Source: Candidatus Neomarinimicrobiota bacterium
Lineage (GTDB): Bacteria; Fidelibacterota; Fidelibacteria; Fidelibacterales; Fidelibacteraceae
Direction: 5' to 3'
Assembly (NCBI GenBank): GCA_021157965.1
Contig: JAGGVO010000023.1
Span: 1-64,000 of the forward strand
Length of the DNA: 64,000 nucleotides
A model generated the notes under the pieces. The model worked only from the letters and a program-made list of their open reading frames with translations, was not told where the DNA came from and did no database searches. Positions 29,504 through 48,349 of this stretch are shown here, piece by piece. The number at the start of each line of letters is the position of its first letter. The first letter of the stretch is position 1. Both the position numbers and the translations under genes were made by a program.

Positions 29504-30769
29504 TTGAAGACAGATGTAAAAGAGTTATCACCGTCCAAGCGCGAACTGGTGATTGAGGTTCCCTGGGAAGAACTGGAGACTTTATACACGGCTTTTCTGA
29601 AAAAGTTCAGATCCCGGATCCGGATGCCGGGATTCCGGAAAGGGAAAGTCCCCATGAGTATCGTGGAACGTCAGTATGGGAGTCATGCCGAACTGGAATT
29701 TGTGAAAGACCACTTCAACATGTTTTATTATAAAGGATTGCAGGAGGCAAAGCTCAATTCTGTTGGTGAACCCGACGTTGAACACATTCACTTTCACAAG
29801 GGTGAACCTTTGCATCTTCATCTCAATCTGGAAATTCTGCCCGAATTGAAACTCCCGTCATATAAAGAGGGATTCAAGGTAGAAAAACCTGTCTATACCA
29901 TAAAAAAAGAGGATGTGGAAAAACAGATAGAAGAACTTCGCAAGAAGAATGCAGAATTGACGGAAAAGGGAGGACCGGCCGAAATGGGTGATTATCTGGA
30001 GGCTGAAGTTGTTGAGACAGATGCTGAAGGGAATCCTGTTACGGGGGCTGAGCCGGAAACCTCAACACTTGTCCTGGGAGAAAACCCCATCACAGAAGAA
30101 CGGGCTCAAGCCCTGGTGGGGATACAAAAGGATGAAAGCCGTCAATTAGTGTTTAAAGCAGAGCATGAAAAGGATGAAGATCGCTATTTCAAAGTTAAGG
30201 CATTGAAAATACAAAAGCTCAATCTGCCGGAAGTCAATAAGGAATTTGTCCAGACTGTGGATCCCGAGCTTGAAACGGTGACTCAGTTGAAAGAAAAAAT
30301 CAAGAATGAACTTCAGGATTATCTTGATAAAGAAAGTGAAAAACAGTTGGACAACAATATCCGGGAGTATTTTCTGGGTGAACTGAAAGATTTCGAAATT
30401 CCTGGAACCATTATTCAGGGGTATCTTGATGATTTATACAAGGATCAGAAAGAGCAGGTCGCCGGCATACCCGAGGAACAATTCCGTGAGCAGTACCATG
30501 AAATGGCTCATAACACCCTGAAATGGATGATGGTCCGTGAAGAAATTATCAAACAGGAAAAACTTCAAGCGACCGATGAAGAAATCCAAAAAAAGGTAGA
30601 TGATCTGATTATGAAGGTGGATGAAAAACTCAGGGATGCTTATAAATCTTATTATGAATCAGATAATTTCAAAAAGACGCTTTCTCAGGAACTGATGTCG
30701 GATAAAGTGATGGATCATCTGAAATCATTTGCCAGGATTAAAGAGAATAAAATCACCCGGAAAGGGTAG
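29504..30769 (+). CDS. tig: Trigger factor (ribosome-associated chaperone/peptidyl-prolyl isomerase)
   Basis: 421 residues (432 in E. coli). The N-terminal ribosome-binding domain carries the signature as RIRMPGFRKGKVPMSIVERQYG (here RMPGFRKGKVP, near residue 37). A PPIase-like middle part (about 150-240) is poorly conserved, and the C-terminal domain is helical. The start is TTG 29504 with GGAG ten bases before; no nearby ATG fits the domain start. Leads the operon with clpP and clpX, a conserved order. Confidence 0.94.
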   Translation: MKTDVKELSPSKRELVIEVPWEELETLYTAFLKKFRSRIRMPGFRKGKVPMSIVERQYGSHAELEFVKDHFNMFYYKGLQEAKLNSVGEPDVEHIHFHKGEPLHLHLNLEILPELKLPSYKEGFKVEKPVYTIKKEDVEKQIEELRKKNAELTEKGGPAEMGDYLEAEVVETDAEGNPVTGAEPETSTLVLGENPITEERAQALVGIQKDESRQLVFKAEHEKDEDRYFKVKALKIQKLNLPEVNKEFVQTVDPELETVTQLKEKIKNELQDYLDKESEKQLDNNIREYFLGELKDFEIPGTIIQGYLDDLYKDQKEQVAGIPEEQFREQYHEMAHNTLKWMMVREEIIKQEKLQATDEEIQKKVDDLIMKVDEKLRDAYKSYYESDNFKKTLSQELMSDKVMDHLKSFARIKENKITRKG

Positions 30770-30778
30770 GGGGATGTG

Positions 30779-31366
30779 ATGAATTACGTACCCATGGTCA
30801 TTGAACAGTCCGGACGGAGTGAACGGGCCTATGATATTTACTCCCGCCTTCTGAAAGAACGGATAGTGTTCATCGGAACCCCGATTGATGATCAGGTGAG
30901 TACTTTGGTGGTTTCCCAGCTTTTATACCTGGAAGCGGAGGATCCGGAAAAGGATATATCCCTCTATATTAATAGTCCGGGAGGATCCGTATCTGCAGGC
31001 CTGGCCATTTATGACACCATAAATTATATCCAGTGTGATGTGGCGACAATATGTATTGGACAAGCTGCTTCCATGGGAGCTTTTTTGTTGGCAGCCGGAA
31101 CCAAAGGCAAGCGGTCGGCTCTTCCCCATGCCCGGCTTATGATTCACCAGCCCTTGGGGGGAGTGGAAGGACAGGCCAGTGATATTGAGATTCACGCCCG
31201 GGAAATTATGAAAACAAAGAAACTATTAAATGAAATATTGCGGGATCTGACGGGTCAGACCCTGAAGAAAATCGAAAAAGATACGGACCGGAACTTTTTC
31301 ATGAGCCCTGAAGAGGGTGTTCAATACGGATTGATCGATACGGTCCTGAGGAAAAGGAATTCATGA
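30779..31366 (+). CDS. clpP: ATP-dependent Clp protease proteolytic subunit
   Basis: 195 residues. Serine protease of the 14-mer barrel: active-site Ser in [11 protein letters not shown] (near residue 97), His in [11 protein letters not shown] (near 122), and Asp in the [16 protein letters not shown] block. I chose ATG 30779 over the GTG just before it. The ribosome site is AGGGGGATG. Works with ClpX, which overlaps its stop codon. Confidence 0.96.
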
Positions 31367-32613
31367 CAAACGGAAACAAGCGCCGTGAACGGGTCTGCAG
31401 CTTTTGCGGCCGGGAAGAAAAAGATGTTTTAGCCTTGGTAGAAGGACTGTATGGCTCAATTTGTGATGAATGTGCCTTTACGGCCCTGGATATTATTCAA
31501 CAGCAGCTGGAAGAAAGTTATGAACCGGAATTGGAGTCATTACCCACGCCGCGGGAAATACACGAAGAGCTCAATAAAACGGTTATTGGTCAGGACCATG
31601 CCAAAAAGGTTGTTTCCGTGGCGGTTTATAATCATTATAAACGCATTCAGAATCCACGGGCTGAAAAAGACGACGTGGAACTGGAGAAAAGTAATATTCT
31701 GCTGGTAGGCCCTACGGGTACAGGAAAAACCCTCATTGCCCAATCTCTGGCCAGAATGCTTAAGGTACCTTTTGCCATTGCCGATGCTACCACACTGACG
31801 GAAGCCGGGTATGTAGGGGATGATGTTGAAAACATTTTGGTCCGCCTGCTTCAGGCTGCGGATTACAATGTGGCTGCGGCGGAAAAAGGGATTGTATATA
31901 TTGACGAAATCGACAAAATCGCACGGAAGTCCGGCAATCCGTCTATCACCCGGGATGTAAGCGGGGAGGGGGTTCAACAGGCCCTGTTGAAGATTCTTGA
32001 GGGGACTATTTCGGCTGTTCCTCCGAAAGGCGGGCGAAAGCATCCCGAAGCACAGATGGTGCATATTAACACCCGTTCTATCCTATTTATATGCGGGGGA
32101 GCATTTGAAGGGCTTGATGACATCATTGCACGACGAATTGGTAAGAAAGAGATAGGTTTCGGGGATAAAGCCCGGACGGGAAAACGGATGACACGGGATG
32201 AAATCCTGAAAAAGCTTGAACCGCATGATTTAAACAGTTTTGGTTTCATTCCCGAACTCATTGGCCGTCTGCCGGTCCATGCCACCCTGCAGGAACTTAC
32301 AAAAGAAACACTCCGGCGCATCCTGACAGAACCCCGGAATGCTCTGGTCAGGCAGTATGAAAAACTGATGGAACTGGAAGGTATCCGACTTGAGTTCAGG
32401 GAAGACGCCCTCGATGAAATTGTTGAATTGGCGCTAAAGCGGAAAACCGGTGCCCGGGCGCTTCGATCGATCATGGAAGATATTATGCTGGATTTGATGT
32501 ATGAGATTCCCGGTAAGGAGAAAATCGGAACCGTTGTGGTGGACCGGGACGTTGTTCTGAAAAAAGAATCCTACAGGATAGTCAAAAAAACCAAAACAAA
32601 AAAAGCTTCATAG
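31363..32613 (+). CDS. clpX: ATP-dependent Clp protease ATP-binding subunit
   Basis: 416 residues (424 in E. coli). N-terminal zinc finger C12, C15, C34, C37 ([11 protein letters not shown]...ICDECA). Walker A GPTGTGKT near residue 116, Walker [11 protein letters not shown] near 183, pore loop region and [14 protein letters not shown] near the C-terminus. Unfolds tagged substrates for ClpP. ATGA overlap with clpP; no clear terminator follows. Confidence 0.97.
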
Positions 32614-32700: not shown

Positions 32701-32732
32701 CATATCCATAAATGATATGCAAATAATGCATA
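32701..32732. promoter_or_regulatory. Paired AT-rich inverted repeats upstream of the Lrp-like gene
   Basis: CATATC-N7-GATATG (32701-32719) overlaps TATGCA-N5-TGCATA (32716-32732). Both are perfect dyads of the AT-rich kind bound by Lrp/AsnC regulators, and they lie about 100 bases upstream of the promoter of an Lrp-like gene. Autoregulation is an inference. The rest of the 32614-32830 stretch is AT-rich with no gene or terminator. Confidence 0.35.
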
Positions 32733-32830
32733 AAAATACAGATTCTTCTATAAACCTGCATTTCAAAGATTTAGAGGCGTTGTGATATAAAAAAAATGGA
32801 AAAAAAGGTGATTCAAGAGTAATTTATTCC

Positions 32831-32859
32831 TTGACTGTATTAAGAATATTATGTATCGT
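32831..32859 (+). promoter_or_regulatory. Promoter of the Lrp/AsnC gene
   Basis: TTGACT (32831-32836), 17-bp spacer, TATCGT (32854-32859), 25 bases before the ATG at 32885. It overlaps an in-frame upstream TTG extension, which argues that the coding region starts at 32885. Confidence 0.5.
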
Positions 32860-32884
32860 CGAAATACCTTTTGGAAAAATACAC

Positions 32885-33346
32885 ATGATTGATACCATAG
32901 ACGAACAGATACTTACGATTCTGCAGGAAAATGCACGGACACCCAATGCAGAAATAGCCCGGCATATTGGTATGACGGCTTCGGCTATTTTCGAACGGAT
33001 AAAAAAACTTGAAAAACAGGGAATCATTAAAGGATATGAAGTCCGTTTGTGCCCGGATAGAATCGGTCTGCCCCTTCTGGCCTTTGTACTGATTTCCTTG
33101 AATGAAATCAACAGGATGCACGTAACGGGGAAGCAGATCGCTGAAATCCCGGGTGTGCAGGAGGTTCATTACATTGCAGGCAAAGGATCCATACTGGCCA
33201 AAATCCGTACGGCCGGGACCCTGGATCTGGAGCATCGTTTAGATCAGATCAATCAGATTAAAAATGTCAGTGTTACGGAAACCACCATTGTTTTAAAAAC
33301 CGATTTAGAAAGTATGTCCCTGCCCATCTCACGCGAAAAAGATTAA
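32885..33346 (+). CDS. Lrp/AsnC family transcriptional regulator
   Basis: 153 residues from ATG 32885. N-terminal winged helix-turn-helix (DEQILTILQENARTPNAEIA, then MTASAIFERIKKLEKQGIIKGY) and a C-terminal RAM/AsnC ligand-binding domain (ISLNEINRMHVTGKQI, VQEVHYIAGKGSILAKIR with the Gly-rich turn). Usually an octameric or dimeric regulator responding to amino acids. It precedes the TonB-receptor operon on the same strand, which has its own palindrome, so it may control that operon. Confidence 0.93.
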   Translation: MIDTIDEQILTILQENARTPNAEIARHIGMTASAIFERIKKLEKQGIIKGYEVRLCPDRIGLPLLAFVLISLNEINRMHVTGKQIAEIPGVQEVHYIAGKGSILAKIRTAGTLDLEHRLDQINQIKNVSVTETTIVLKTDLESMSLPISREKD

Positions 33347-33445
33347 AAATTTGGTACGGACGGATATGATAGCAGAACGTGATTCATGTGATAAAAGGTC
33401 AATTGCGTAAAGGGTTAACATTTCAGGAGAATCAGCACAGAAAAT

Positions 33446-33457
33446 TGATATATATCA
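33446..33457. promoter_or_regulatory. Perfect 12-bp palindrome before the TonB-receptor gene
   Basis: TGATATATATCA, 25 bases ahead of the ATG at 33483 and just upstream of the GGGAGG ribosome site. It is a candidate operator for the adjacent Lrp-like regulator. No clean -35/-10 pair could be fixed around it. Confidence 0.35.
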
Positions 33458-33482
33458 GATGTGATAACTCGGGAGGTTATGT

Positions 33483-36400
33483 ATGGTAAAACGATGGCTA
33501 TGGCTGACCGTTATTTTACTTATTCCCGGCATGATTTATGCCGCCATGGGTAAGATTTCGGGTACAGTCAAAGACGCTGAAACAGGTGCGCCTTTAGCCG
33601 GTGTAAACATCGTTATTGAAGGAACGACGATGGGTGCAGCCACCGGTGGAGACGGATCCTATGTTATTTTGGATGTTCCCCCTGGAATTTATTCACTGCA
33701 GGCATCCTATATTGGATATGCCCAGGTGACTATGACGAATGTTCGGGTGACATCGGGTTTAACCGCGGAAGCAAACTTCCAGATGAAAAAGGAAGCCATC
33801 CGTGGTGAGACCGTTACGGTGGTTGCCGAACGTCCGATCATTGAGAAATCTGCAACCAACGAAGTCCGGGTTGTGCGGTCTGAAGATATTCTGAATCTTC
33901 CCGTCCGGACCTTTACCGGCATTGTGTCTAACCAGACCGGTGTTGTGAGTGTTGGTGAGGATATTCACGTGCGTGGCGGTCGTGCCGGAGAAGTTGGCTT
34001 TTATGTGGATGGTGTATATGTCAACAATCCCTACGATATGAGTAGGGGTGGTGATCTGTCTGCCACGGCATATGAAGAAGTATCATATCAGGCTGGAGGA
34101 TTTAATGCCGAATTCGGCAGCGCTTCATCGGGTATTGTAAACACGACAACAAAGACTGGTGGTGAAAAGTGGAATTTTCAGGCTGAATATGTAACTGATG
34201 GTTTTCTCAATGGATGGGGTAATATTTTTGAACAGGATGATGGCATTCTGGATACCTATTCTTATGGGTATAATCAGATGAATGCATCCATAGGCGGTCC
34301 CCTGACAAACCGTATACGGCTCTTTCTTAATGCAGAAAAACTGGATATCGGTGCCGCACGTCCCGCTGCCGGAAAACACGGTAAAGCGGTTTTTAATGAG
34401 GACGGCAATGTTGTGGGTATCAAAATGGTCCGCGGCCCCATTGAAGATAACGAAGAAAACACGTACAGCGCCGTTGGGAACCTTCTTTTCGACTTCAAGC
34501 CCTTCAGGGTTAGGGTCGGCGGCTCCTACTATAAATCTGCCTACAGGCTTTATGCACACCAGTATTCACTTTTAAATAGCAGTCATCAACCTAAAGAAGA
34601 GCAGGAAACCATCACGGGACATGCCCGGCTTTCCGGGACTTTGGGCCCCAAAACGGTGCTGAACTTACAGGCGAGTTATTTTAACGATAAGGTGATACGG
34701 TATGACCCGGTTCTTGGTGAAGATTATCGCTATTATGGCCTGCGCTATATGCCCAAAGATGGTGAACGGCTGATTCTGGATACACTGTATGTCTATAATG
34801 AAGACAGTACAGAAATCATCAACACAATCTACCATGATACGATCATCTGGACCGACACATCATGGGTCCATCCGGCTGCGAAAAAGATGGTATCCAACGG
34901 GACCAATCTCCCGGCGGATTATAACCTGATGGCTTTCTATCCTGAAGGTCACTGGTATGATGCCTATCTGCGGACCTATTCCTATTATTACATGCTGACA
35001 GGCAGCATTCTGCATCAGACCGGAAATCACGAGTTGAAAACCGGTTTTGAGTACAGGATGAACAATATCCGCCGCTTTACGATTATTGCCCCGTCCCGAC
35101 TGGCATCCTCTCTCATGAAATATGATCCCCAACTGGGAGATGACGGATATTATAATTATAGCTGGGATCAGCTGACAGATGCTGATTACAGAGCAGCTTA
35201 TGCCGATAACATGGGCTGGGATGTCTCCGGTTTCAACGATCTGCCGGATGATCATCGTGACGGTGCCCGCGAACCGGTGATTGCATCCGCTTATTTCCAG
35301 GATAAAATCGAGTTGAGTGATATGATCCTGAATGCAGGTATCCGTTATGATTATTACTATTCCGGTCATAAAACTTTCTACGATCCGGAAAATATTGTGA
35401 TTGATCAAAGCGGTGATATCTCTGAACGTGTTTATGCTTCCCTGGATGAAGACGGAAATAAAGTCTATAAATCCTCTATCCCGACTGAATATGATCCTAT
35501 CGGACTTCCTCAATTGAAGGAACCCGATGGAATGAATTATATCAGTCCCCGGCTGGGATTTGCTTTCCCCGTGACAGACAGAACGGTTTTTCATGCACAA
35601 TATGGAAAATTCATCCAGCCGCCGAATCTGCAGGATGTCTTTATCAGTTATGCCCGTTTTGCATCCAACCTGTCTCAGGGGAATTTCACCGAATCGGGAA
35701 ACCCCGAATTGAAACCGGTGGAAGTCACCTCGTATGAAATTGGATTCAAACAGGTTTTTGGCGGAAATGCCTCTTTCGACCTGACCATGTTTTATAAGCA
35801 ACTCAATAACTATGTACAGGAACGGAATATTTATGCAACGCCAACCGTTTATGCTACCTTTGTGAATGGTGATTTCGGGACGGTGAAGGGCTTTTCCTTT
35901 GCATATAATCTCCGCAGAACCCGGAATCTGCGGATGTCTTTGAATTATACTCTTCAGTGGGCTGCCGGAACGGGATCCACATCTGACGGACAATATAAGA
36001 TTGTCTGGCAGGGCGGAAACTTTCCCACCTATGTTGCACCCCTGGATTTCGACCAGAGACATACGGGTTCTGTAAATCTGGATTACCGGACGGGGAACAA
36101 GGACATTATCAAAAACTTTGGTGTCAATGCCCTGTTAACCTTTGGAAGCGGACGGCGCTATACCCCGACAGTTGTGGTATCTGAAGTATTTCCGCCTACC
36201 TCCAACACACCGGTTGCCGCCATAAATTCAGGAACCATGCCTTGGACTTTTCAGACGGATGTATCCATTGACAAGAGCTTTTATCTTGGCGGAAAAACAC
36301 AGTTAACCACCTATCTGTCCATCATCAATCTCTTTAACCGGGATAATGTCCGGGATGTCTATTCCGGGACAGGTAACCCCGATGATGACGGATACATGGT

Positions 36401-36539
36401 TACGCCTGCAGGACAAGCACTTACCGATACAGACCTGAAAGTGAAGGCTTATAAAGCCCGGCTCAGCAATCCGTTCAATTATGAAAATGCACGCCAGGTC
36501 CGGCTTGGTGTGAGGTTAAACTTTACAGCCGGTCGATAA
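33483..36539 (+). CDS. TonB-dependent receptor with N-terminal carboxypeptidase-regulatory-like domain
   Basis: 1018 residues. Signal peptide to about residue 20 (LTVILLIPGMIYA), then a carboxypeptidase-regulatory-like beta-sandwich (about 23-105; SGTVKDAETGAPLAGVNIVIEG), a TonB plug (about 110-235; VHVRGG-type IHVRGGRAGEVGFYVDGV and FNAEFGSASSGIVNTTTKTGG), and a barrel to the C-terminus. Energised uptake across the outer membrane; the substrate is unknown. No SusD gene follows. Instead a 1092-residue exported protein and a PorV-like barrel follow in the same operon, spaced 12 and 17 bases apart, each with a strong GGAG-type site. Confidence 0.94.
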   Translation: MVKRWLWLTVILLIPGMIYAAMGKISGTVKDAETGAPLAGVNIVIEGTTMGAATGGDGSYVILDVPPGIYSLQASYIGYAQVTMTNVRVTSGLTAEANFQMKKEAIRGETVTVVAERPIIEKSATNEVRVVRSEDILNLPVRTFTGIVSNQTGVVSVGEDIHVRGGRAGEVGFYVDGVYVNNPYDMSRGGDLSATAYEEVSYQAGGFNAEFGSASSGIVNTTTKTGGEKWNFQAEYVTDGFLNGWGNIFEQDDGILDTYSYGYNQMNASIGGPLTNRIRLFLNAEKLDIGAARPAAGKHGKAVFNEDGNVVGIKMVRGPIEDNEENTYSAVGNLLFDFKPFRVRVGGSYYKSAYRLYAHQYSLLNSSHQPKEEQETITGHARLSGTLGPKTVLNLQASYFNDKVIRYDPVLGEDYRYYGLRYMPKDGERLILDTLYVYNEDSTEIINTIYHDTIIWTDTSWVHPAAKKMVSNGTNLPADYNLMAFYPEGHWYDAYLRTYSYYYMLTGSILHQTGNHELKTGFEYRMNNIRRFTIIAPSRLASSLMKYDPQLGDDGYYNYSWDQLTDADYRAAYADNMGWDVSGFNDLPDDHRDGAREPVIASAYFQDKIELSDMILNAGIRYDYYYSGHKTFYDPENIVIDQSGDISERVYASLDEDGNKVYKSSIPTEYDPIGLPQLKEPDGMNYISPRLGFAFPVTDRTVFHAQYGKFIQPPNLQDVFISYARFASNLSQGNFTESGNPELKPVEVTSYEIGFKQVFGGNASFDLTMFYKQLNNYVQERNIYATPTVYATFVNGDFGTVKGFSFAYNLRRTRNLRMSLNYTLQWAAGTGSTSDGQYKIVWQGGNFPTYVAPLDFDQRHTGSVNLDYRTGNKDIIKNFGVNALLTFGSGRRYTPTVVVSEVFPPTSNTPVAAINSGTMPWTFQTDVSIDKSFYLGGKTQLTTYLSIINLFNRDNVRDVYSGTGNPDDDGYMVTPAGQALTDTDLKVKAYKARLSNPFNYENARQVRLGVRLNFTAGR

Positions 36540-36551
36540 GAGGAGAGATAA

Positions 36552-39500
36552 ATGAATACGTACTACAAACGACTATTATGGATTTCTCTGATCGGCCTGA
36601 TCTTCGCTGCTACAGCATTCGGAGCTAAGCCGATTGGGAAATATTATATGGGCACATTCTTCAAACAGTCTATTCTGGAATACAAACGGTTCGACGGTAA
36701 CCGTATCCGGACCTGGACGTACAATAACGGAGAATGGGTTAGTTCTGGTGTCACATCTGAATCGGGACTCGAATGGCCGAAAGGGTCCGGGAAATACGCC
36801 GTATTTCAATCGGGCATGTGGCTGGCCTCGGGGAAAGTGAAAGAACCCGGTTCAGCAACATTTAAAAATGAAATCCGGACAGCTGCCGCGGAATATACCG
36901 TTGAATTCCAGCCGGGTCAGATTCTCTATATGGACACCATTAACCAAGTTGAAGTCCCTATGAGCGAATACCCCAAAGCCAATTGTGCCTGGATCGCTCA
37001 AAACCCGGAAGATCCGAAATACTGGTATCTCAAGGTAAACAAGGATGATACCCTGGACCAGGATTATCTGAACTGGCCGGCGGATCAGGGTGCCCCTGTG
37101 GATGATAACGGAAAACCCCTCATTCTGGGCGATCAGATGATGTGGAGTGTGTATAATGACGCCAACCCCACTGCTCATTCACAACTCTTTGATTCCAAGC
37201 CTATGGGAGTTGAAATCCAGACAAGTATGTTTGGGTTTAACCGGAATGACCCCCTTGGGGATATCCTGTTTGTGAAAAATCTGGTCATTAATAAATCCGA
37301 TAATTACTATGCCGATATGTATGTTGCCATGTGGTCAGATCCGGATGTGGGTGATGCCAATGACGACTTGGTAGGTGTCGATACGAACCTGGTATTGGGC
37401 TACTGTTTTAACGGTGGAGTCAATGACCAGAATTACGGATTGACCCCTCCGGCTGTTGGGTATGATTTCTTTCAGGGACCTCATGTTAAAAGTCCCGGTG
37501 ATACAGCCTACTGGTCCGGCGTTCCAAGACCCGGCTGGAAAGAACTGGGTGTTTCATCCTTCATCAAATACATCAACGGGGACGCGATTCTCTTTGATCC
37601 TGAAACAAAGGAAGAGTGTTGGAATGTGATGACGGGACTCACCCCGGCCGGTAAGGATTTTGAAAATTCTGTTACCGGTGAAAAATCCAAGTTTATCGCC
37701 AGTGGTGATCCTGTAACAGGAGAAGGCTGGCTGGATATACAAGATGACCCGCCGGGTGATCGCCGGTTTCTCATGAGTTCAGGCCCCTTTGAAATGGCTC
37801 CGGGCGATACACAGGAAATCGTCGGTTCCATTATTATTGCTTCCGGCAGCGATAATTTGAGTGCTGTCACGGCGTTGAAATACTACGATCGCTTTGCACA
37901 AAATGCATTTAACTCAAACTTTGAACTGGCAACACCACCGCAACCGGAAGTGGAAGTGACAGAACTGGATAAGGGTGTTGTGCTCACATGGGATAACAAT
38001 GCAGATCAAGTGCAAACATATCGCTATCAGACTGCGTCTGCTGATTATCACTTTGAAGGATATAATGTCTATCAGGGTGAATCTATAACCGGTCCCTGGA
38101 AACGCATTGCTACTTATGATGTGAAAAACGGTGTTACCATGATTGTGGATGATAAATTCGACCAGAATTATGGAATGGTCCTTCAGCAACCGGTTCAATT
38201 TGGAACTGATGCCGGAATTCAGAACCATATTTACATTTCCAAAGACGCACTTCGGGGAAATGTGGACCTGGTTAACAACCGGAAATACTATTTCGCCGTA
38301 TCCTGTTATATATATGATAGCAATGCATTGCCGAAAGTTGTCGAGTCGGCCCTGGAAGGCTATCTTGCCATTCCACGTCCCTACCCGGCACTGAATCTGG
38401 ATTATCATGCAGCCTACGGAGATACAATTTCAGTGGAAAATCTGGGTGGACAGGCAAATGCCCTGATTGTTCCCAAAGTTGTAGATCCTTCTTCTTTAAC
38501 AGGTGAGACTTATGAGATTCGTTTTGATTCTCTGGAGACGACGGAAGATGTTTATTTCATCAACAAGGATGGTAAGCAGGATACAACCACTACAGATCTC
38601 TATTGGTCTTTGAATGTGATTGATCCCACCAAATCCTATGGACAGGATGGATACGTAGTTCGTTCAATCATACCGAAAGAGACCGATTTCTTCTCTTATT
38701 CTACAAATCAGTTCTATGATGGTTTTTCACTTATCGTTCGGGATATTTCGACCGAATTGGTTCCGAAGATCACGAATCCGTTCAGGGAATTGACGCAATC
38801 AATTCCTGCCGGACTCGATTCAATGCAGCAAACTAAAGTGGATGCCCGACTGGCAGGCGATGCGTCTGCTGAACTGACAGGCGGGAAATCCGCTATGTTC
38901 AATGCCTGGGCTGCTGTGGGCTTGATGCCGGATCCTCCGTTACCATCGGATGAACAGATGATGAGCAACCTGGAGATTCGCTTTAAAGGTCCAGGCGAAG
39001 GTCAGAAGATCACGATTTGGCCGGTTCAGGCCGTAACATCCGGACAGTGGGCTGATTCTATTATGATAAAAACGGCTCCCTTTGAAGTGTGGGATGTGGA
39101 GAATAATATGCAGTTAAATGCATTGATGGTGACATTTCCCAAACCATCTTCCACATCACCTACAGGAGCTATGATGCCCAAATCCTTCTTCGACGACACA
39201 CTGACAACCATACCGGATAGTCTTGGACGACCCTTGATCGATGTGTATAAATACTCTCCCGGATCTCTGCGCTTCCTCGTAATTGCTTACGATGAATATG
39301 ATGCCGGTAGAATGTATCAACCGTATAAGGTCACCGGCGATACTACGGATCATGCAAGTCTGGGATGGTCCTTTAAATGGAGTGATACACGGAACTATAT
39401 TCCCGGTTCTGTTGCCAAAGTGGAAATTATGAATCCGCTTATACCGGACATCGATTACTGGCAATTTACCACTCCGGTCCTGGAAGATAATGACGAGCTG

Positions 39501-39830
39501 ATCGCTGATCGCCTGGAAATGATCAATGTCTTCCCCAATCCCTATTTTGGGCAGCAGGTGGAAGAGTTGAATGCACAAAACCGTTTTGTGACCTTTACTC
39601 ACTTGCCGGAAAAGGCTACGGTGTATATCTTTACGATTTCCGGAGATCTTGTCCGGAAACTTGAACACAATACACCCGGATCATCCATCCTGCGATGGAA
39701 TCTGCTGAACCATGCGGAAATTCCCGTGGCCAGCGGTATGTATATCGCATACGTGGAACTTCCGGACGGGAGTAGCAAAACACTAAAACTGGCAGTGTTC
39801 CAGCCTGAAGAGCGATTGGACCTCTTTTAG
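36552..39830 (+). CDS. Large exported protein with central FnIII-like domain and C-terminal sorting domain
   Basis: 1092 residues. The signal peptide is LLWISLIGLIFAATAFG. The N-terminal ~450 residues are unassigned and beta-rich (YMGTFFKQSILEYKRFDGNRI...). Around 461-600 there is a fibronectin III-like region (EVTELDKGVVLTWDNNAD, FEGYNVYQGESITGPWKRIATY). The last ~100 residues (from MINVFPNPYFGQQ) form a type A-like sorting domain with TVYIFTISGDLVRKL and ASGMYIAYVEL. Unusually it continues past the usual end (KLAVFQPEERLDLF). Same operon as the TonB receptor and PorV-like gene; it may be surface-displayed and act with the receptor. Confidence 0.85.
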   Translation: MNTYYKRLLWISLIGLIFAATAFGAKPIGKYYMGTFFKQSILEYKRFDGNRIRTWTYNNGEWVSSGVTSESGLEWPKGSGKYAVFQSGMWLASGKVKEPGSATFKNEIRTAAAEYTVEFQPGQILYMDTINQVEVPMSEYPKANCAWIAQNPEDPKYWYLKVNKDDTLDQDYLNWPADQGAPVDDNGKPLILGDQMMWSVYNDANPTAHSQLFDSKPMGVEIQTSMFGFNRNDPLGDILFVKNLVINKSDNYYADMYVAMWSDPDVGDANDDLVGVDTNLVLGYCFNGGVNDQNYGLTPPAVGYDFFQGPHVKSPGDTAYWSGVPRPGWKELGVSSFIKYINGDAILFDPETKEECWNVMTGLTPAGKDFENSVTGEKSKFIASGDPVTGEGWLDIQDDPPGDRRFLMSSGPFEMAPGDTQEIVGSIIIASGSDNLSAVTALKYYDRFAQNAFNSNFELATPPQPEVEVTELDKGVVLTWDNNADQVQTYRYQTASADYHFEGYNVYQGESITGPWKRIATYDVKNGVTMIVDDKFDQNYGMVLQQPVQFGTDAGIQNHIYISKDALRGNVDLVNNRKYYFAVSCYIYDSNALPKVVESALEGYLAIPRPYPALNLDYHAAYGDTISVENLGGQANALIVPKVVDPSSLTGETYEIRFDSLETTEDVYFINKDGKQDTTTTDLYWSLNVIDPTKSYGQDGYVVRSIIPKETDFFSYSTNQFYDGFSLIVRDISTELVPKITNPFRELTQSIPAGLDSMQQTKVDARLAGDASAELTGGKSAMFNAWAAVGLMPDPPLPSDEQMMSNLEIRFKGPGEGQKITIWPVQAVTSGQWADSIMIKTAPFEVWDVENNMQLNALMVTFPKPSSTSPTGAMMPKSFFDDTLTTIPDSLGRPLIDVYKYSPGSLRFLVIAYDEYDAGRMYQPYKVTGDTTDHASLGWSFKWSDTRNYIPGSVAKVEIMNPLIPDIDYWQFTTPVLEDNDELIADRLEMINVFPNPYFGQQVEELNAQNRFVTFTHLPEKATVYIFTISGDLVRKLEHNTPGSSILRWNLLNHAEIPVASGMYIAYVELPDGSSKTLKLAVFQPEERLDLF

Positions 39831-39847
39831 GAAAGAAGGAGATAAAA

Positions 39848-40909
39848 ATGAATAAAAATAAAGCCTTATTCACTCTCACGCTGGTCTTTGCACTTCTGTT
39901 TGTGTGGACAGTTGCTGAGGCTGGAAGTTCTAAACGCCGGGGAACTGCCGGCGCTATGGAACTCTTGATTCCCATGGGTTCCAGAAATCTGGCCATGGGT
40001 GGATCAGATATTGCCGGTGTGAGTGGTGTAGAAGCCGGATATTGGAATCCGGCAGGACTCTCGCAAATCAATAACCGGGTTGAAGCCCTTTTCTCCTACC
40101 AACGATGGATAGGAGATATCAATACCGTTTATATCGGTGTTGTGGCTCAGCTTGGACAAATCGGAGCTCTCGGATTCAACCTGAGCAGTCTGGATTTTGG
40201 TGAAATCAATGTCACCACAACCGATGCTCCCGATGGAGCAGGAGAAACCTATACACCCCAGTTTTTAACTCTGGGGGTTACTTATTCCAAGGAAATGACA
40301 GACCGTATCAATTTTGGTGCATCAATTAAACTCATTTCTGAAAATATTATGCGCCAGAGCGCATCCGGTCTTGCCTTTGATGCCGGAGTGCAATACTCCA
40401 TGATGGATGAAAAACTGAGACTGGGTATTGCTGTCCGTAATGTCGGGACCAACATGCGCTTTGATGGTCCGGATTTGGAAATTAAGGTCCAGCCACCGGG
40501 AACGGAACCGGGGGCTGCGTTAAGACCATTCCGGGTACCTCTGCAGGAATTTGAAATGCCTGCCCAGGTTGAACTGGGGCTGGCCCATGATGTTGTGGCC
40601 AATGAATCCATCGTCTGGACGGTTTCAGGTTCTTTCCTCCACAACAATTTCTCGTTTGACGAATATAAACTGGGAACAGAGTTCGTTCTGAATGAGATGT
40701 TTGCTGTGAGAGGTGGATACGTTATGGCACAGGATCCGGATGAAGATACATTCTATAACCTGTCTGAAGATTTTATCTTCGGACCCAGTTTTGGATTCGG
40801 GTTGAGTTACCCCTTGAATGCAACCACATATCTGAAACTGGACTATGCCTACAGGATGACAAAGTTCTTTGATTCCCATCAGCTCTTTACCCTGAGCCTG
40901 GGATTCTAA
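39848..40909 (+). CDS. PorV/PorQ-like outer-membrane barrel
   Basis: 353 residues, signal peptide LTLVFALLFVWTVAEA. Family hallmarks are the start of the mature region MELLIPMGSRNLAMGGSDIA and EAGYWNPAGLS near residue 60, followed by alternating strands ending in the barrel-type LFTLSLGF. PorV is the T9SS outer-membrane shuttle that carries tagged cargo to the attachment complex; PorQ is a related family. Its place directly after a gene for a sorting-domain protein fits a role in exporting that protein. The T9SS core genes (porK-N, sov, porU) are not in the window. Confidence 0.87.
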   Translation: MNKNKALFTLTLVFALLFVWTVAEAGSSKRRGTAGAMELLIPMGSRNLAMGGSDIAGVSGVEAGYWNPAGLSQINNRVEALFSYQRWIGDINTVYIGVVAQLGQIGALGFNLSSLDFGEINVTTTDAPDGAGETYTPQFLTLGVTYSKEMTDRINFGASIKLISENIMRQSASGLAFDAGVQYSMMDEKLRLGIAVRNVGTNMRFDGPDLEIKVQPPGTEPGAALRPFRVPLQEFEMPAQVELGLAHDVVANESIVWTVSGSFLHNNFSFDEYKLGTEFVLNEMFAVRGGYVMAQDPDEDTFYNLSEDFIFGPSFGFGLSYPLNATTYLKLDYAYRMTKFFDSHQLFTLSLGF

Positions 40910-40924
40910 AGTAAATAAGAGATT

Positions 40925-40956
40925 CACAGTCCGCGGAAAGATATCCGCGGGCTGTG
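40925..40956 (+). other. Long GC-rich stem-loop between porV-like gene and exoprotein gene
   Basis: CACAGTCCGCGG (40925-40936), 8-nt loop, CCGCGGGCTGTG (40945-40956): a 12-bp stem with one T/G wobble. No T-run follows on either strand, so it may be a transcript-end stabiliser or a weak terminator, not a standard rho-independent terminator. Confidence 0.5.
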
Positions 40957-41005
40957 ATCAAAAACACGTAAAGGTGCATAAATTAAAAGTTTTTTGAATA
41001 AAAAC

Positions 41006-41034
41006 TTGCAATATTCAGAAAAGCGTCGTTACAT
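41006..41034 (+). promoter_or_regulatory. Promoter of the 990-residue exoprotein gene
   Basis: TTGCAA (41006-41011), 17-bp spacer, TTACAT (41029-41034), about 60 bases before the ATG. The box TACATTTTG is one base longer than the Bacteroidetes -7 element TAnnTTTG. A strong GAGGAGG ribosome site precedes the start. Confidence 0.5.
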
Positions 41035-41093
41035 TTTGAGTGGATAATGATTAACAATACAACAAAAACAATGTTAACTGAGGAGGTTCAAAC

Positions 41094-44066
41094 ATGAATC
41101 GTTTGGTACGAGGTTTGGTCGTTACCTTCCTTTTGGTTGCATTTGTTGGTTCTGCTTTCGCTGCTTTGGAAAGCGAAAAATGGAACCGGGAAATACAGCC
41201 GGCAAAGGCACAGGTGACAGAAGGTACCCCTTTGGTTGCGAAAGGCACCATTGATTATATGCGGTACCCCATTCCCGCCACCGGACTCGTCAACTTTGGT
41301 GGTTGGCCGGAAGATACTTTCTATGAGTATTTTGTTCCGGCAGCTGACGGAGAAATGCAGGAAATTTTCTTCCGTCTTTCCGATGTGACGGGTGTGGCAA
41401 ACGGGAATGAATCCTTTAATGTTTCCATCTGGGGAACATCCTATCTCACATGGGATATGGGTGACTATGCCCAGAGGGACAATGTTGCAGTTGGTTACTA
41501 TGAAGATACGGAAGGTGATTATGAATGGCAGGGAACCAATTGGGTGGATCTGCTTCCGGATTTTACCCCCGGTGATCCCCTGACAGAGAAAATCTGGCCT
41601 TCTTATGTATCTGCCATGTCAGTGCCGATTGGATCCGAACTGGAATCCGATGATACGGTAAGTCTGGCTCTGAGTGGTGAAGGTCTCTATCCTACAATGG
41701 AGGCCGGTGTGCCTTTTGCTGTGATTGCAGAATTTGTCGGTACGGATGCCCGTGACCCTGAAGGTCGTCTGGGTTTTATGTCCGGCGATATTCAACCCTA
41801 TGAATATTATCCGGCCATGAAATTCTATGATGAATTTTCCAACTCAGCGATCAGCAAGTTCGGTTGGTATGTTCGTAAGTATATCTGGGACTGGGTTGTA
41901 AAAGTTAACCTGACAGGTGACCGTCCGCCGATTATTGAGCATACGCCCCTGATCACGACAGTCAGTACTGAAGGACGTGAAGTGGTGGCAACCATTACGG
42001 ACGATAACCCCTCCGGTGGAAATGCCGGTGTACAAACTGCTGAAGTTGTCTATACTATAGATGGTGGCGCTGAACAGAGTGTTACCATGACAAAGGGAAC
42101 AGGCGACGAATATGCTGCGACGATTCCTGGACAATCTCCGGGATCAACCATTGCTTACAAAGTAGTAGCTACAGACGTGGAAGGTAATGTGGGCGAAACA
42201 CCTGTCTACGAATATATGATCTTCCTTCCCGTAAACTCTGTGCTTATTCTGAACAATTCCGGTTATAGTATGGGATGGTTTGGTGCCTATGTATGGCCGG
42301 GTGTTGGGCTGCCTTATGATGTATGGTCTTATGGTGAAGCTGAAATTGATCTGCTGAACAGCTATGACTATATTGTTGACCTGGGTGGTCATGGCACTAC
42401 AACCTATGATGCCCTGAAAACATGGGCCGATGCCGGAAATAAGAACTATCTTGGTTTCGGTGATGAGCTGCTTGGCTATCCCTATGGTTGGCCTTCAACT
42501 CCCATGACCCTTGAAGATGGTACGTTCTTTAAGGATATTGTGGGTATTGCCACCTATATTGCTGACATCAATGCCACGGATCAAGCTGCTCCTTCTATCC
42601 TTGAACCCATTCAGGGGGATGTGGTTACAGGTCCTCTCTATGACGAACTGAATGCTGAAACTCCTGTACCGGTACTCTACTACTGGCCGGATTATATTAC
42701 CGGTGGTACGAACTGGTTTGACGGTTTCGAAGAAGCTTCCGGTGCGACTGTCAGTATGATAGGATATGCTGAAGATAATGAAACAGCTTACACCGTAGGT
42801 GTGCTGAATGAAACGACTGCCGGAACCAGATCCGCATTCTATGGTGTGGATCCCATTGCTTTGGATGCTATCTCAGACTCTGTTGACTGGTGGTATCCGG
42901 ATTATCTGGCAGGGGCTGTCTTCAGCAATTATTTTGTTCAGGATGTCACTGTCCGCTTCCAGGTGGATATGGGCATCGAAATCGTAAAAGAATCCTTTGA
43001 TCCAGCTTCGGATGTTGTTGATGTCCGCGGATCCTTCAACGGATGGGCTCACACGGAAGATGATGTTCTGGCAAAGGATCCTTCCGATGATGATCTTTAT
43101 CTTCTGGACAAAACCTTTACCGGTGTTGGTATGGGACAAACAGAAGAGTACAAATTCGTTCATAACGGCGGTGGAACCGACAACTGGGAATCTTCTCCCA
43201 ATCGTGTTCTGACTTTTGATGGTTCTACATCCATTGAACTGCCACGCGTATTCTTCAGCGATGTCAGCTGGGATGATATTACCAGCCAGGATGTAACCCT
43301 GATTTTCAAGGTTGATGCTTATCCTCTGAAAGCTGCCTTGAATGACGGCCATCCTGTCGTGGATGTTCAAAGTGATGCCGATACAATTTACTCCTATGAC
43401 GAAGTGACTTTCATCGGTGTAAACGGTTTCTTCAACGGGTGGCCCTGGGCTAATATTCCCGATGAAAATAAACTGTACGATGATGGCCAGGGCGAAGATG
43501 CAACAGCCGGTGATGATATCTTCAGCGGTTCCGTTGTGTATCCTGCCTACAGCGCGAAGAACTTCATCTATAAGTACGGTGCTAACGGCTTCGATAATGA
43601 AGCTGGATTTGACCAAAATCATAGTGCTGTTGTAGATGATGCCAATGCTACCTTCGAGCTGGAAATGGATTGTTACGGTATGCAGAATGCTGATGCCCGT
43701 CTGCCATGGGGTCAGGGAGTAGACTCCCTTGATACCTATGATTGTTCCTGGTGGGTCAAAGTTGATGAAGATGTGGCCGGTGTTCCCGAAGTGTTTGAAC
43801 TTCGCCAGAACTACCCGAACCCCTTCAACCCGTCAACAACCATTGAGTTCAGTATTCCTGAACGTGCCGATGTCACAATGACCATCTATAACGTGCTTGG
43901 ACAGGCTGTCCGTACTTTCAATGCAGGTACGCAGAATGTCGGTACATATCGTATCGTTTGGGATGGTACCAATGACTTTGGTATGACGGTCTCTACCGGT
44001 GTTTATTTCTACACCGTCAGAGCCGGTGAACATGCTGCAACGAAAAAGATGGTTTACATGAAATAA
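41094..44066 (+). CDS. T9SS-tagged exoprotein with GATase-like region and two CBM48/AMPK-like modules
   Basis: 990 residues. Signal peptide VVTFLLVAFVGSAFA. About 277-375: an FnIII/Ig-like domain (VSTEGREVVATITDDNPSGG). About 379-610: a region resembling GATase/ThuA-like folds (SVLILNNSGYSMGWFGAYVW, DYIVDLGGHG). About 618-735 and 732-870: two modules like CBM48/AMPK glycogen-binding domains (VDVRGSFNGWAH, then VNGFFNGWPWANI). From about 902: a textbook type A sorting domain (NYPNPFNPSTTIEFSIPE, ending KMVYMK). Very acidic, aromatic-rich, only two Cys. Own promoter, strong ribosome site, own terminator and even codon use suggest high expression. Glycan binding is an inference. Confidence 0.88.
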   Translation: MNRLVRGLVVTFLLVAFVGSAFAALESEKWNREIQPAKAQVTEGTPLVAKGTIDYMRYPIPATGLVNFGGWPEDTFYEYFVPAADGEMQEIFFRLSDVTGVANGNESFNVSIWGTSYLTWDMGDYAQRDNVAVGYYEDTEGDYEWQGTNWVDLLPDFTPGDPLTEKIWPSYVSAMSVPIGSELESDDTVSLALSGEGLYPTMEAGVPFAVIAEFVGTDARDPEGRLGFMSGDIQPYEYYPAMKFYDEFSNSAISKFGWYVRKYIWDWVVKVNLTGDRPPIIEHTPLITTVSTEGREVVATITDDNPSGGNAGVQTAEVVYTIDGGAEQSVTMTKGTGDEYAATIPGQSPGSTIAYKVVATDVEGNVGETPVYEYMIFLPVNSVLILNNSGYSMGWFGAYVWPGVGLPYDVWSYGEAEIDLLNSYDYIVDLGGHGTTTYDALKTWADAGNKNYLGFGDELLGYPYGWPSTPMTLEDGTFFKDIVGIATYIADINATDQAAPSILEPIQGDVVTGPLYDELNAETPVPVLYYWPDYITGGTNWFDGFEEASGATVSMIGYAEDNETAYTVGVLNETTAGTRSAFYGVDPIALDAISDSVDWWYPDYLAGAVFSNYFVQDVTVRFQVDMGIEIVKESFDPASDVVDVRGSFNGWAHTEDDVLAKDPSDDDLYLLDKTFTGVGMGQTEEYKFVHNGGGTDNWESSPNRVLTFDGSTSIELPRVFFSDVSWDDITSQDVTLIFKVDAYPLKAALNDGHPVVDVQSDADTIYSYDEVTFIGVNGFFNGWPWANIPDENKLYDDGQGEDATAGDDIFSGSVVYPAYSAKNFIYKYGANGFDNEAGFDQNHSAVVDDANATFELEMDCYGMQNADARLPWGQGVDSLDTYDCSWWVKVDEDVAGVPEVFELRQNYPNPFNPSTTIEFSIPERADVTMTIYNVLGQAVRTFNAGTQNVGTYRIVWDGTNDFGMTVSTGVYFYTVRAGEHAATKKMVYMK

Positions 44067-44085
44067 GGTAAACGATCCTGACTAT

Positions 44086-44116
44086 AAAAAACCCCGGATT
44101 TCCGGGGTTTTTTTTT
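44086..44116 (+). terminator. Rho-independent terminator after the exoprotein gene
   Basis: Stem ACCCCGGA/TCCGGGGT (44091-44098 and 44101-44108, 2-nt loop), extended by A/T pairs to 13 bp, followed by a run of nine T. Confidence 0.93.
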
Positions 44117-44202: not shown

Positions 44203-45315
44203 ATGAAAAAAATGATGAAATGGTTGATTCTTATTTGTGTTTTCCTTGGCTCAACATCCCTGTTTGCCCTGGAAATACGTACCGGATCGAAAATCATACA
44301 TACCTATGATGTGGATGGCGATTATGCCATTTTCGCCGGAGATGTGGAAATCAACAGCGATATTGACGGAAATCTTTATCTCCTTGGGGGAAATGTCCGC
44401 TTTAACGGGAGTACGGATAATGACCTTTACATTGCCGGTGGTGAGTGTATGGTGAATGGTATCGTTGAAGATAATGTTTATATTGCCGGTGGAAATATCC
44501 GTTTGACGGGCCGTTATTTTAATGATGTGAATATTGCAGGTGGTAAAATCGTCCTCGATTCTACATCTTATATCCGGGGTGATGTGGCTATTGCAGGTGA
44601 TGATATCACACTTCAAGGACATATACAGGGAGATGTGGAAATACATGGCAATACACTCTACCTGAATGGGAATGTGGACGGCAACCTGGAGACCTATGTA
44701 GAAGATTACCAGGCGTCTGAAATGGCCCTGGTGACAGGTGTTGTCAGCCATCAGGAACCCAGGGAAAAATGTTATTACTGGAAACCCTGGGGGCCATGCG
44801 ACATTCATGTGCCCCATATCCGGATACATCCCCTCTTTGTAGGCTTGAATTTTTTCCTGTTCAGCCTGATTTGTGCCGCGCTTTGGTATTATCTGTTCCC
44901 GGCATCTTTTAAAGGAAGCGGTTTTCTGATTAAGCATGAACCGGTGAAAATGGGTCTGTGGGGACTCCTGTGCCTGGTTCTCATTCCGCTATTGGGCATT
45001 TTATCCATGATTTTTATTGTTTCAATTCCTTTCTCCATTTTGTTTCTGCTCTTTTTCGGTGTTACGGTTTTCTTGGGACAGTTTCCGCTGGCTGTGTGGC
45101 TTGGGGAACTTATTACTAAAAATATTCCCGGCTTTCAAAAGGGTATGCTCCCGGCAGCAACCGGCCTTCTGGTGCTCCACCTGCTTATAAAAATACCACT
45201 GCTTTCGTTTCTCTTTTTTGTAATCTGGGTTTTTGTGGGCTTCGGCAGTATCTGGTACTGGATTCTTAAAAGGCAAAAAGCACTTAAGATCATTGCATCC
45301 GAAACATCTACTTGA
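44203..45315 (+). CDS. Bactofilin-like exported/membrane protein
   Basis: 370 residues. Signal peptide LILICVFLGSTSLFA, then about 150 residues of short beta repeats of the bactofilin/polymer-forming type (DGNLYLLGGNVRFNGSTDND, ...DNVYIAGGNIRLTG, GDVAIAGDDITLQG). Then a linker with an aromatic/Cys patch (KCYYWKPWGPCDIHVPH) and a C-terminal half of about five hydrophobic helices (FFLFSLICAALWYYLF, LLCLVLIPLLGILSMIFIVS, FLFFVIWVFVGFGSIWYW). True bactofilins are cytoplasmic and lack a signal; this one appears to place the repeat outside. Ribosome site AAGAGGTG. Its stop overlaps the convergent neighbour by 8 bases. Confidence 0.8.
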   Translation: MKKMMKWLILICVFLGSTSLFALEIRTGSKIIHTYDVDGDYAIFAGDVEINSDIDGNLYLLGGNVRFNGSTDNDLYIAGGECMVNGIVEDNVYIAGGNIRLTGRYFNDVNIAGGKIVLDSTSYIRGDVAIAGDDITLQGHIQGDVEIHGNTLYLNGNVDGNLETYVEDYQASEMALVTGVVSHQEPREKCYYWKPWGPCDIHVPHIRIHPLFVGLNFFLFSLICAALWYYLFPASFKGSGFLIKHEPVKMGLWGLLCLVLIPLLGILSMIFIVSIPFSILFLLFFGVTVFLGQFPLAVWLGELITKNIPGFQKGMLPAATGLLVLHLLIKIPLLSFLFFVIWVFVGFGSIWYWILKRQKALKIIASETST

Positions 45316-48300: not shown

Positions 48301-48349
48301 AAAGAAAAAAGGCGAACACGGTTGAAAGCTTCTTTATGTACTTCCACAT
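45308..48349 (-). CDS. Multi-FnIII secreted protein with C-terminal sorting domain
   Basis: 1013 residues. Signal peptide near FAFFLLMVDTLPAYA. About eight Ig/FnIII-like repeats of ~110 residues follow, each with a motif such as LRWTSSADPDPLDTLLRYII, HWKASDDPDPDGDTGTTRYQ or KWTACIDPDLNDEITYTLYI. The tail (about 928-1013) is a type A sorting domain: HPVQPNPFKDIVHLKF, TISIYNIIGQRIEI, PAGVYIFTLRIG, ending GLYIK. Probably cell-surface or extracellular, perhaps adhesive or a scaffold; no catalytic motif. The start ATG has no Shine-Dalgarno sequence and follows a TAAATTTTG box by four bases. Confidence 0.85.
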   Translation of the reverse strand: MWKYIKKLSTVFAFFLLMVDTLPAYAQNPPEILLPGNNDIISYLPYKLVWAYPDSFRIYQQYIRISQDPFGDIIHLQRILTGRERDYILRSGLADNKAYYLFVGSLTEPDTSILWSIPVSFTLDHLNSPPGEFFIHDIPDTLTPGTPLRWTSSADPDPLDTLLRYIIFTEDTEDSSLQQEILHIPENASLQEHSADITPTLINHKTYRVRIFAEDLEGILQEGIPSQTFVYNTGKNKAPVSPKGLKPFDITELSPGDRLRWDNVYDADGDRVFYSVQMDTTPIFTQPFEFTTLTPFYLINDSLKNYFSDDNRIFWRVRAQDLWGGFSSWSTFGSFYINFENTAPYWTSPFLPEETHHIVTHESFILQWPDAEDDDYSDKDSMTYHIWYRSKEDPERYHFKEKSARHTVPVETLKENGTYHYFIKAEDAAGHFSKQSIRGIITLNRIEEPPYIPPRIVYPPDNQILLPSGRLAWHISEDHDPLDTLKYILTISEDSLFRKNILREILTKSRLPVHAHLLAGFNRWDPMQTLFYTPNPDTMLVQLNYLSFWHRLRDNQRYYFRVQAVDTKQLRSDISETGTFILNKKNNPPEPVAEIYFPCHRCNIHTTNPLFHWKASDDPDPDGDTGTTRYQLNIRDVDKNTIEYILTEPGESQIKPAYPFRENGRYELKIRSFDAKSAFSEWTDPVYFWINEKPELPVLNPDAFSIQADSIITKSNPVFHFGSVCSPDPPEEQIKLFMDIRFIFPASEDTILFPLLPFQSQFNNSDLSFPENTRGIYQVRLRTEDSLMGHWTKAIPFGVDMYADIPLPFYLLHPKAGQDTVKVNPKFKWTACIDPDLNDEITYTLYISPDSTFYEDTYIIRDIKETQYKFDDYDLEDNTKYFWKVSAEDKNGHIVWGSNSNFESRYFIVGLLEAADRDGRGGQGHEFHPVQPNPFKDIVHLKFTLGQSEEVTISIYNIIGQRIEIIHHGVFAAGTHSIKWDITQAGVPLPAGVYIFTLRIGNRVLQQKGLYIK

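Follow-up and report, generated by a model that had tools for sequence, protein, structure and literature searches.

A recurrent triplet of TonB-dependent receptor, exoprotein with a T9SS-type C-terminal domain and PorV/PorQ-family barrel in Neomarinimicrobiota and other phyla

The window analyzed here is a stretch of 64,000 nucleotides from a Candidatus Neomarinimicrobiota bacterium (contig JAGGVO010000023.1 of assembly GCA_021157965.1; 2.3 Mb, 61 contigs, 96% complete). It carries three consecutive genes coding for a TonB-dependent receptor, an exported protein of 1092 residues (EXO) with a borderline C-terminal sorting domain of the type recognized by the type IX secretion system (T9SS), and a barrel of the PorV/PorQ family (PORV). 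This receptor-exoprotein-PorV-like triplet is real and ancient, and no description of it was found in the open-access literature searched. The new elements are the combination of a dedicated barrel and its cargo with a TonB receptor, and a C-terminal extension of fixed length. The reading proposed here, which we consider about equally likely to prove right or wrong, is that EXO is exported by the T9SS and, without being cleaved, is kept on the cell by its own PorQ-like barrel, where it serves as the receptor's external partner. Gene order, conservation, protein families, the presence of a T9SS, and the tail rule are observed; we infer the export route, the docking, the contact, the ligand, and the direction of transport.

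The triplet across phyla and within one genome

Of 80 related genomes, 64 contain relatives of EXO (E ≤ 1e-20). In a set of 130 complete EXO genes, 99 follow directly on a receptor gene, and 93 of these are in turn followed directly by PORV, with median gaps of 19 nucleotides on each side. Because this sample was drawn by similarity to the EXO of the window, these fractions apply to family members close to the query and not to every relative. Two more loci (L183 and L195) are triplets in which PORV was masked by a longer, spurious antisense open reading frame. The triplets belong to at least six phylum-level lineages (Neomarinimicrobiota, KSB1, Zixibacteria, Latescibacteria, Eisenbacteria, and Ignavibacteria/Melioribacteraceae), and others come from records labeled only Bacteroidetes. 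A sequence-only reading of the window had suggested a receptor served by a tagged partner with its own PorV-like barrel, an idea to be abandoned if the triplet did not recur; it recurs far beyond the genome in which it was noticed, with EXO and barrel consistently co-encoded. In many families of Neomarinimicrobiota and in one KSB1 genome (L190), the triplet directly follows tig-clpP-clpX. The Lrp/AsnC-family regulator, which had been counted as part of the system, is upstream of the triplet in the own genus only, is downstream of PORV in a sister genus (L080, L085), and was seen beside none of the surveyed triplet loci outside the family. Its placement rules it out as a part of the module.

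The genome of the window contains nine further, divergent loci of receptor, tagged exoprotein, and PORV, mostly as adjacent genes (Table 1). Pairwise distances among nine of the paralogous triplets of this genome are correlated for every pair of proteins (receptor-barrel, r = 0.93; exoprotein-barrel, 0.78; receptor-exoprotein, 0.74; Mantel p ≤ 1.5e-4 each). Hence, the three genes travel as a unit, and since these triplets are paralogs from a single genome, species history cannot be the cause of the correlations. Ten of the 11 strong PorV/PorQ-family genes of the genome stand beside a TonB receptor in such loci, the eleventh being near glyA and scoring 210 bits with the PorV model. Set against about 55 type A tails in the same genome, this distribution indicates that the copies of PORV track receptors and not cargo. 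Numerous paralogs of EXO unlinked to receptors, which would have spoken against a module, are not what this genome holds: next to the nine other triplets, there is one clear unlinked paralog, and its tail is different. Four genomes of 0.8-1.0 Mb belong to a single genus; EXO is present in three of them, each with two PorV-family genes, and missing from the fourth, whose sole PorV-family gene is of the glyA type. This glyA-type gene, which best fits canonical PorV, is kept near glyA across the phylum (L212:6813-8168; L221, L222, L223, L225, L228, L229, L232), is often near TRAP-transporter-like genes, and is retained even in 0.8 Mb genomes.

The exoprotein tail and the partner proteins

All 96 barrel-linked EXOs of the core version (94 called automatically and two corrected) end exactly 13 residues past an invariant Lys (…PEERLDxY). 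The last residue is Y in 61 of them, F in 26, I in seven, and L in two; L occupies position -4 in 87, and E or Q position -6 in all 96. The rest of the protein is rich in insertions and deletions, unlike this tail of fixed length. The codons of the tail vary freely, so the constraint acts on the protein, and a ribosome-site or DNA-level cause is excluded. In tandem EXO arrays, the extra copies away from PORV stop 7-8 residues after the Lys. Of 20 EXOs that share this tail class but have no barrel next to them, 18 lack the extension or its hydrophobic end, and the six complete EXOs whose tails are of the ordinary type A kind adjoin neither receptor nor PORV. The association between tail and barrel linkage (Fisher p = 1.3e-17, before the antisense correction and with kinship ignored) overstates independence, as EXOs share ancestry; the uniform length of the tail across several phyla is a stronger point than this p value. 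Residues of PORV conserved specifically in the core version (P42, I120, Q182, Y247, and F263) were considered as the docking site, but they are scattered and prove nothing.

Some loci present natural variants of this arrangement. In L108 and L123 (G052:C1, about 36-62 kb), seven EXO genes in tandem share a single receptor and a single PORV; the surplus copies are missing the final residues of the extension. Similar shorter arrays are found in G027, G061, and G064. In six other loci (L024:1285-3900, own genome C15; L127, L128, L129, L100, and L122), the N-terminal half of EXO is fused to an ordinary type A tail. These natural tail swaps are unlinked to receptors or PORV.

EXO itself has no match in the Pfam search nor in a sequence search of the PDB. 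Its tail matches the model of the PorZ C-terminal domain weakly (24 bits, E = 1e-5), and in a profile search it has no match to TIGR04131, the model of type B domains. EXO is not PorZ, as its score with NF052228 is 24.2 bits for a cut-off of 260. The AlphaFold2 (AF2) model of EXO finds its best Foldseek matches among GH116, GH94, and GH92 proteins and PorZ, and its core appears akin, at low TM-score, to the beta-domains of these enzymes (glycoside hydrolases and phosphorylases). The closest named relatives, 80-94% identical over EXO, are Candidatus Neomarinimicrobiota. Downstream of PORV lies a second exoprotein, of 990 residues, which matches TIGR04183 at 42 bits, clearly above the cut-off of 23, and has weak matches to carbohydrate-binding modules (CBM_56/53/20), all below cut-off. 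Its homologs (29-36% identity over several hundred residues) occupy the same position in many Neomarinimicrobiota and stand upstream of the triplet in the Ignavibacteria loci L170 and L173; given this recurrence, it counts as a common fourth gene of the locus.

PORV passes the curated cut-off of the PorV/PorQ family (NF033709, 163.5 bits for a cut-off of 90) and fails those of the narrower models, scoring higher for PorQ (NF033711, 98.6 bits; cut-off 220) than for PorV (NF033710, an equivalog model, 66.7 bits; cut-off 250). It also fails the models of PorP/SprF (12.9 bits; cut-off 90.55) and BamG (NF053685, 25 bits; cut-off 250). The best Foldseek matches of its AF2 model (pLDDT 79) are PorV of the T9SS translocon, 8gl6 (8gl6_F) and 6h3i (6h3i_F), and FadL and TodX are also matched.

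The receptor matches PF13715, PF13620, PF07715, and PF00593, which places it among the SusC-type receptors; residues 25-113 form a CarboxypepD_reg domain, followed in the Pfam matches by plug and barrel, and no model of the gene-regulating/signaling STN domain matched in this search. Carboxypeptidase-regulatory-like beta-sandwiches are common in SusC-type receptors. The receptor does have the N-terminal domain that had been called regulatory-like, but as such a beta-sandwich and not as a gene-regulating STN domain. The absence of SusD, also part of the sequence-only reading, extends to the whole genome, in which PF07980 and PF12771 have no match while a positive control matched; in the Pfam search, EXO, the neighbor of the receptor, has no SusD match either. 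The T9SS is represented by SprA, found in this genome as well as in 78 of 80 relatives, and by a PorU sortase, which in this genome scores 693 bits for a cut-off of 420. The same genome has a PorU-like gene of the peptidase C25 family followed directly by a weakly PorV-like barrel (L219:2074-7682, C20), possibly a second sortase-carrier pair. Near SprA, a propeller-type tagged protein stands beside a barrel that scores as PorQ and not as PorV (L214:11376-13903, C41), and these two are candidates for the PorZ/PorQ pair of the phylum.

A proposed mechanism and its alternatives

In the proposed arrangement, EXO would be taken across the inner membrane by virtue of its signal peptide and then across the outer membrane by the T9SS of the cell (SprA). 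Its C-terminal domain would then be picked up by its own PorQ-like barrel and not by the general PorV, and EXO would stay uncleaved, held at the surface by PORV, with the fixed 13-residue extension acting as the docking peptide that specifies this barrel. There, over or beside the co-encoded TonB-dependent receptor, it might capture a ligand for TonB-driven import and so do the job done elsewhere by the lipoproteins SusD or BtuG. Put most economically, PORV would take EXO from SprA, retain it on the cell, and set it on the receptor. A glycan or glycan-like polymer is the most likely ligand, weakly indicated by the likeness of the EXO core to beta-domains of glycoside hydrolases and phosphorylases and by the carbohydrate-binding-module-like matches of the 990-residue protein. 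Of the candidate export/uptake pathway of the sequence-only reading, uptake or surface capture stands, whereas a new export pathway does not, export being better assigned to the general T9SS. More tentatively, and at somewhat short of an even chance, one may generalize this to a mode of TonB uptake of the wider FCB (Fibrobacteres-Chlorobi-Bacteroidetes) superphylum: the SusD lid would be replaced by a protein that the T9SS exports and that its own PorQ-like barrel anchors, uncleaved, through a docking peptide of fixed length. Such a system would be ancestral, clpPX-linked, and duplicated many times within a genome for different ligands.

Parts of this arrangement have precedents in known systems. 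In SusC/SusD and BtuB/BtuG of Bacteroidota, a TonB receptor has a co-encoded surface partner thought to capture the ligand (PMC7618045, PMC10404256). The triplet shares with them the co-encoding of a TonB-dependent receptor and a surface partner, but EXO is no homolog of SusD, has a T9SS-type C-terminal domain, and has its own PorV-family barrel. Within the T9SS of Bacteroidota, PorV serves as the carrier of type A cargo (PMC10994853), and cargo with a type B C-terminal domain has its own PorP/SprF barrel as carrier, which is probably also its surface anchor (PMC12618676, PMC9143113). As in the type B systems SprB-SprF and PG1035-PorP-PorE, the cargo gene is directly followed by that of a FadL-family barrel; unlike in them, PORV is of the PorV/PorQ family, the tail of EXO is nearer to type A and PorZ, and a TonB receptor is a constant third gene. 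In Porphyromonas, the C-terminal domain of PorZ is retained and bound to PorQ (PMC10202324). The proposed arrangement resembles PorZ-PorQ and PorU-PorV in that the retained C-terminal domain of a T9SS substrate would be bound by a PorV/PorQ-family barrel, and it differs from PorZ-PorQ in that EXO and PORV are below the respective cut-offs, are linked to a receptor, and exist in many copies per genome. EXO and PORV are thus PorZ/PorQ-like in sequence affinities and type B-like (PorP/SprF) in gene order. Type B cargo with PorP/SprF and PorZ held by PorQ also show that a dedicated FadL/PorV-family carrier encoded with its T9SS cargo has precedents; the sequence-only reading had called an export shuttle encoded with cargo and receptor unusual. 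Finally, in BamA-BamG-BamH the FadL-family barrel BamG keeps BamH, a surface protein, positioned above a second barrel (PMC12578637, PMC12611786). The likeness lies in a FadL-family barrel that would hold a surface protein over a neighboring barrel; BamH, unlike EXO, is a lipoprotein, the partner is BamA, and PORV is far below the BamG cut-off.

Several observations weigh against the proposed arrangement. The type A match of EXO sits only at the cut-off of TIGR04183 (19.5 bits in one search and 24.1 in another; cut-off 23), and its Foldseek matches cover part of the chain, with TM-scores of 0.16-0.17, for a model of mean pLDDT 67. The contact between EXO and receptor is deduced from gene linkage only. 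In strain TS1B10-2, two EXOs (L112 and L188) have the extension but are not directly followed by a barrel, although in L112 there is a barrel upstream within the same cluster. The exoproteins of the nine divergent triplets end like ordinary type A tails, without the extension. Docking therefore cannot depend on the extension in general; it marks the widespread core version only, and is rejected as a general requirement of triplet membership. The pattern of loss in the small genomes is a single event, seen in one incomplete assembly.

Among the alternatives, the role of PORV might be limited to carrying: it would shuttle EXO from SprA, EXO would then be released or attached elsewhere, and the receptor would import products without touching EXO, the operon being kept by co-regulation. 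Carriers of both the PorV and PorP/SprF kinds are known (PMC10994853, PMC12618676), the ordinary type A tail of the 990-residue exoprotein shows that other exported proteins are made at the locus, and linkage by itself is no proof of contact. We nevertheless regard this as rather unlikely, because a pure shuttle of EXO does not predict that, of the three distance correlations, the one between receptor and barrel should be highest, and because PorV-family genes follow receptors and not cargo numbers. It is improbable that the receptor acts in export, helping to push out EXO or the downstream exoprotein as Oar does in Myxococcus, where this TonB-dependent transporter is required for secretion of PopC (PMC6434023). 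The receptor of the window does match the barrel model PF25183 (59.5 bits), but with a T9SS-type domain on EXO, SprA, and PorU an export route is already there, and of the other tagged proteins, about 55 in number, the majority are not linked to a receptor.

Two further explanations seem to us very improbable, to a similar degree. EXO and PORV could be the PorZ/PorQ attachment complex of the phylum, with the receptor incidental, since the tail matches the PorZ model best and the barrel the PorQ model. Yet the scores are far under the curated cut-offs (24 of 260 and 98.6 of 220), the propeller-type tagged protein beside the PorQ-scoring barrel near SprA is a better candidate, and one genome holds ten receptor-linked copies. 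Alternatively, PORV could be a FadL-like channel for hydrophobic compounds fed by EXO as a binding protein, with the receptor as a second route. The Foldseek matches to FadL and TodX are in line with this, whereas the sequence and structure of PORV are nearest to PorV, and in the linked loci the gene preceding it codes for a protein whose C-terminal domain is of T9SS type.

Several mostly uncultured phyla are rich in TonB receptors, and the locus offers a testable answer to the question of how such receptors are served outside Bacteroidota, one that ties the T9SS to nutrient uptake. The sequence rule (13 residues past the last conserved Lys, with a hydrophobic end) predicts which exported proteins of the EXO family keep a dedicated barrel. 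If the uncleaved anchoring of EXO by PORV as partner of the receptor were true, it would explain many genes annotated as PorV/PorQ family far from any T9SS gene.

The locus and its surroundings

The genes of the locus (Table 1) were all found where the sequence-only reading had placed them. The gaps are 12 nucleotides between receptor and EXO and 17 between EXO and PORV, and Shine-Dalgarno-like sequences read by eye (GGGAGG, GGAGAG, AAGGAG, and GAGGAGG) precede the four starts. A gap of 184 nucleotides, within which lies a hairpin of high stability (-28.2 kcal/mol, z -6.6), separates PORV from the 990-residue gene. The suggestion that this gene is separately promoted is plausible on these grounds, although consensus-promoter matches across the region do not exceed in number those of shuffled sequence.

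Table 1. Features of the window and divergent triplets of the same genome
Feature	Position	Strand	Evidence
tig, clpP, clpX; conserved chromosomal neighbors upstream of the triplet	29504..32613	+	Same order in many Neomarinimicrobiota families and KSB1 locus L190
Lrp/AsnC-family regulator; local neighbor	32885..33346	+	ATG at 32885; Pfam HTH_AsnC-type and AsnC_trans_reg
TonB-dependent receptor, 1018 residues; signal peptide, CarboxypepD_reg-like N-domain, plug, barrel	33483..36539	+	Pfam PF00593 (77 bits), PF13620, PF13715, PF07715
Exoprotein EXO, 1092 residues; signal peptide, supersandwich-like core, further beta-rich region, T9SS-type C-terminal domain, extension	36552..39830	+	
EXO C-terminal sorting domain, about residues 985-1079	39504..39788	+	Weak PorZ C-terminal domain and TIGR04183 matches
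EXO 13-residue C-terminal extension LAVFQPEERLDLF after the invariant Lys; candidate barrel-docking peptide	39789..39827	+	Length rule in 96/96 barrel-linked EXOs
PorV/PorQ-family barrel PORV, 353 residues; probable dedicated carrier and anchor	39848..40909	+	NF033709, 163.5 bits
Stable RNA hairpin between PORV and the 990-residue gene; possible transcript end, no U-run	40921..40960	+	-28.2 kcal/mol, z -6.6
Second T9SS exoprotein, 990 residues, ordinary type A tail; frequent fourth locus member	41094..44066	+	TIGR04183, 42 bits
Divergent triplets	C41 0.7-9 kb; C47 56-62 kb; C42 27-35 kb; C16 0-9 kb; C36 59-66 kb		
Divergent triplets, continued	Two at C57; C4 60-67 kb; C61 (exoprotein upstream there)		

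Just past the locus, on the opposite strand (45308-48349), the window codes for a fibronectin-rich exported protein of 1013 residues with a type A sorting tail. In two of the divergent triplets (L032:9045-10406 and L026:6596-7990, own genome C16 and C41), PORV is adjoined by lipoproteins with PPIC rotamase or SurA-like domains, which recall the surface prolyl isomerases of the BAM complex of Bacteroidota. A second SusD-less receptor arrangement is found at L027:10156-11277 and L028:3639-4790 (own genome C41), where lipoproteins with DUF4876 and a Lamin Tail Domain come right after TonB receptors that lack PORV.

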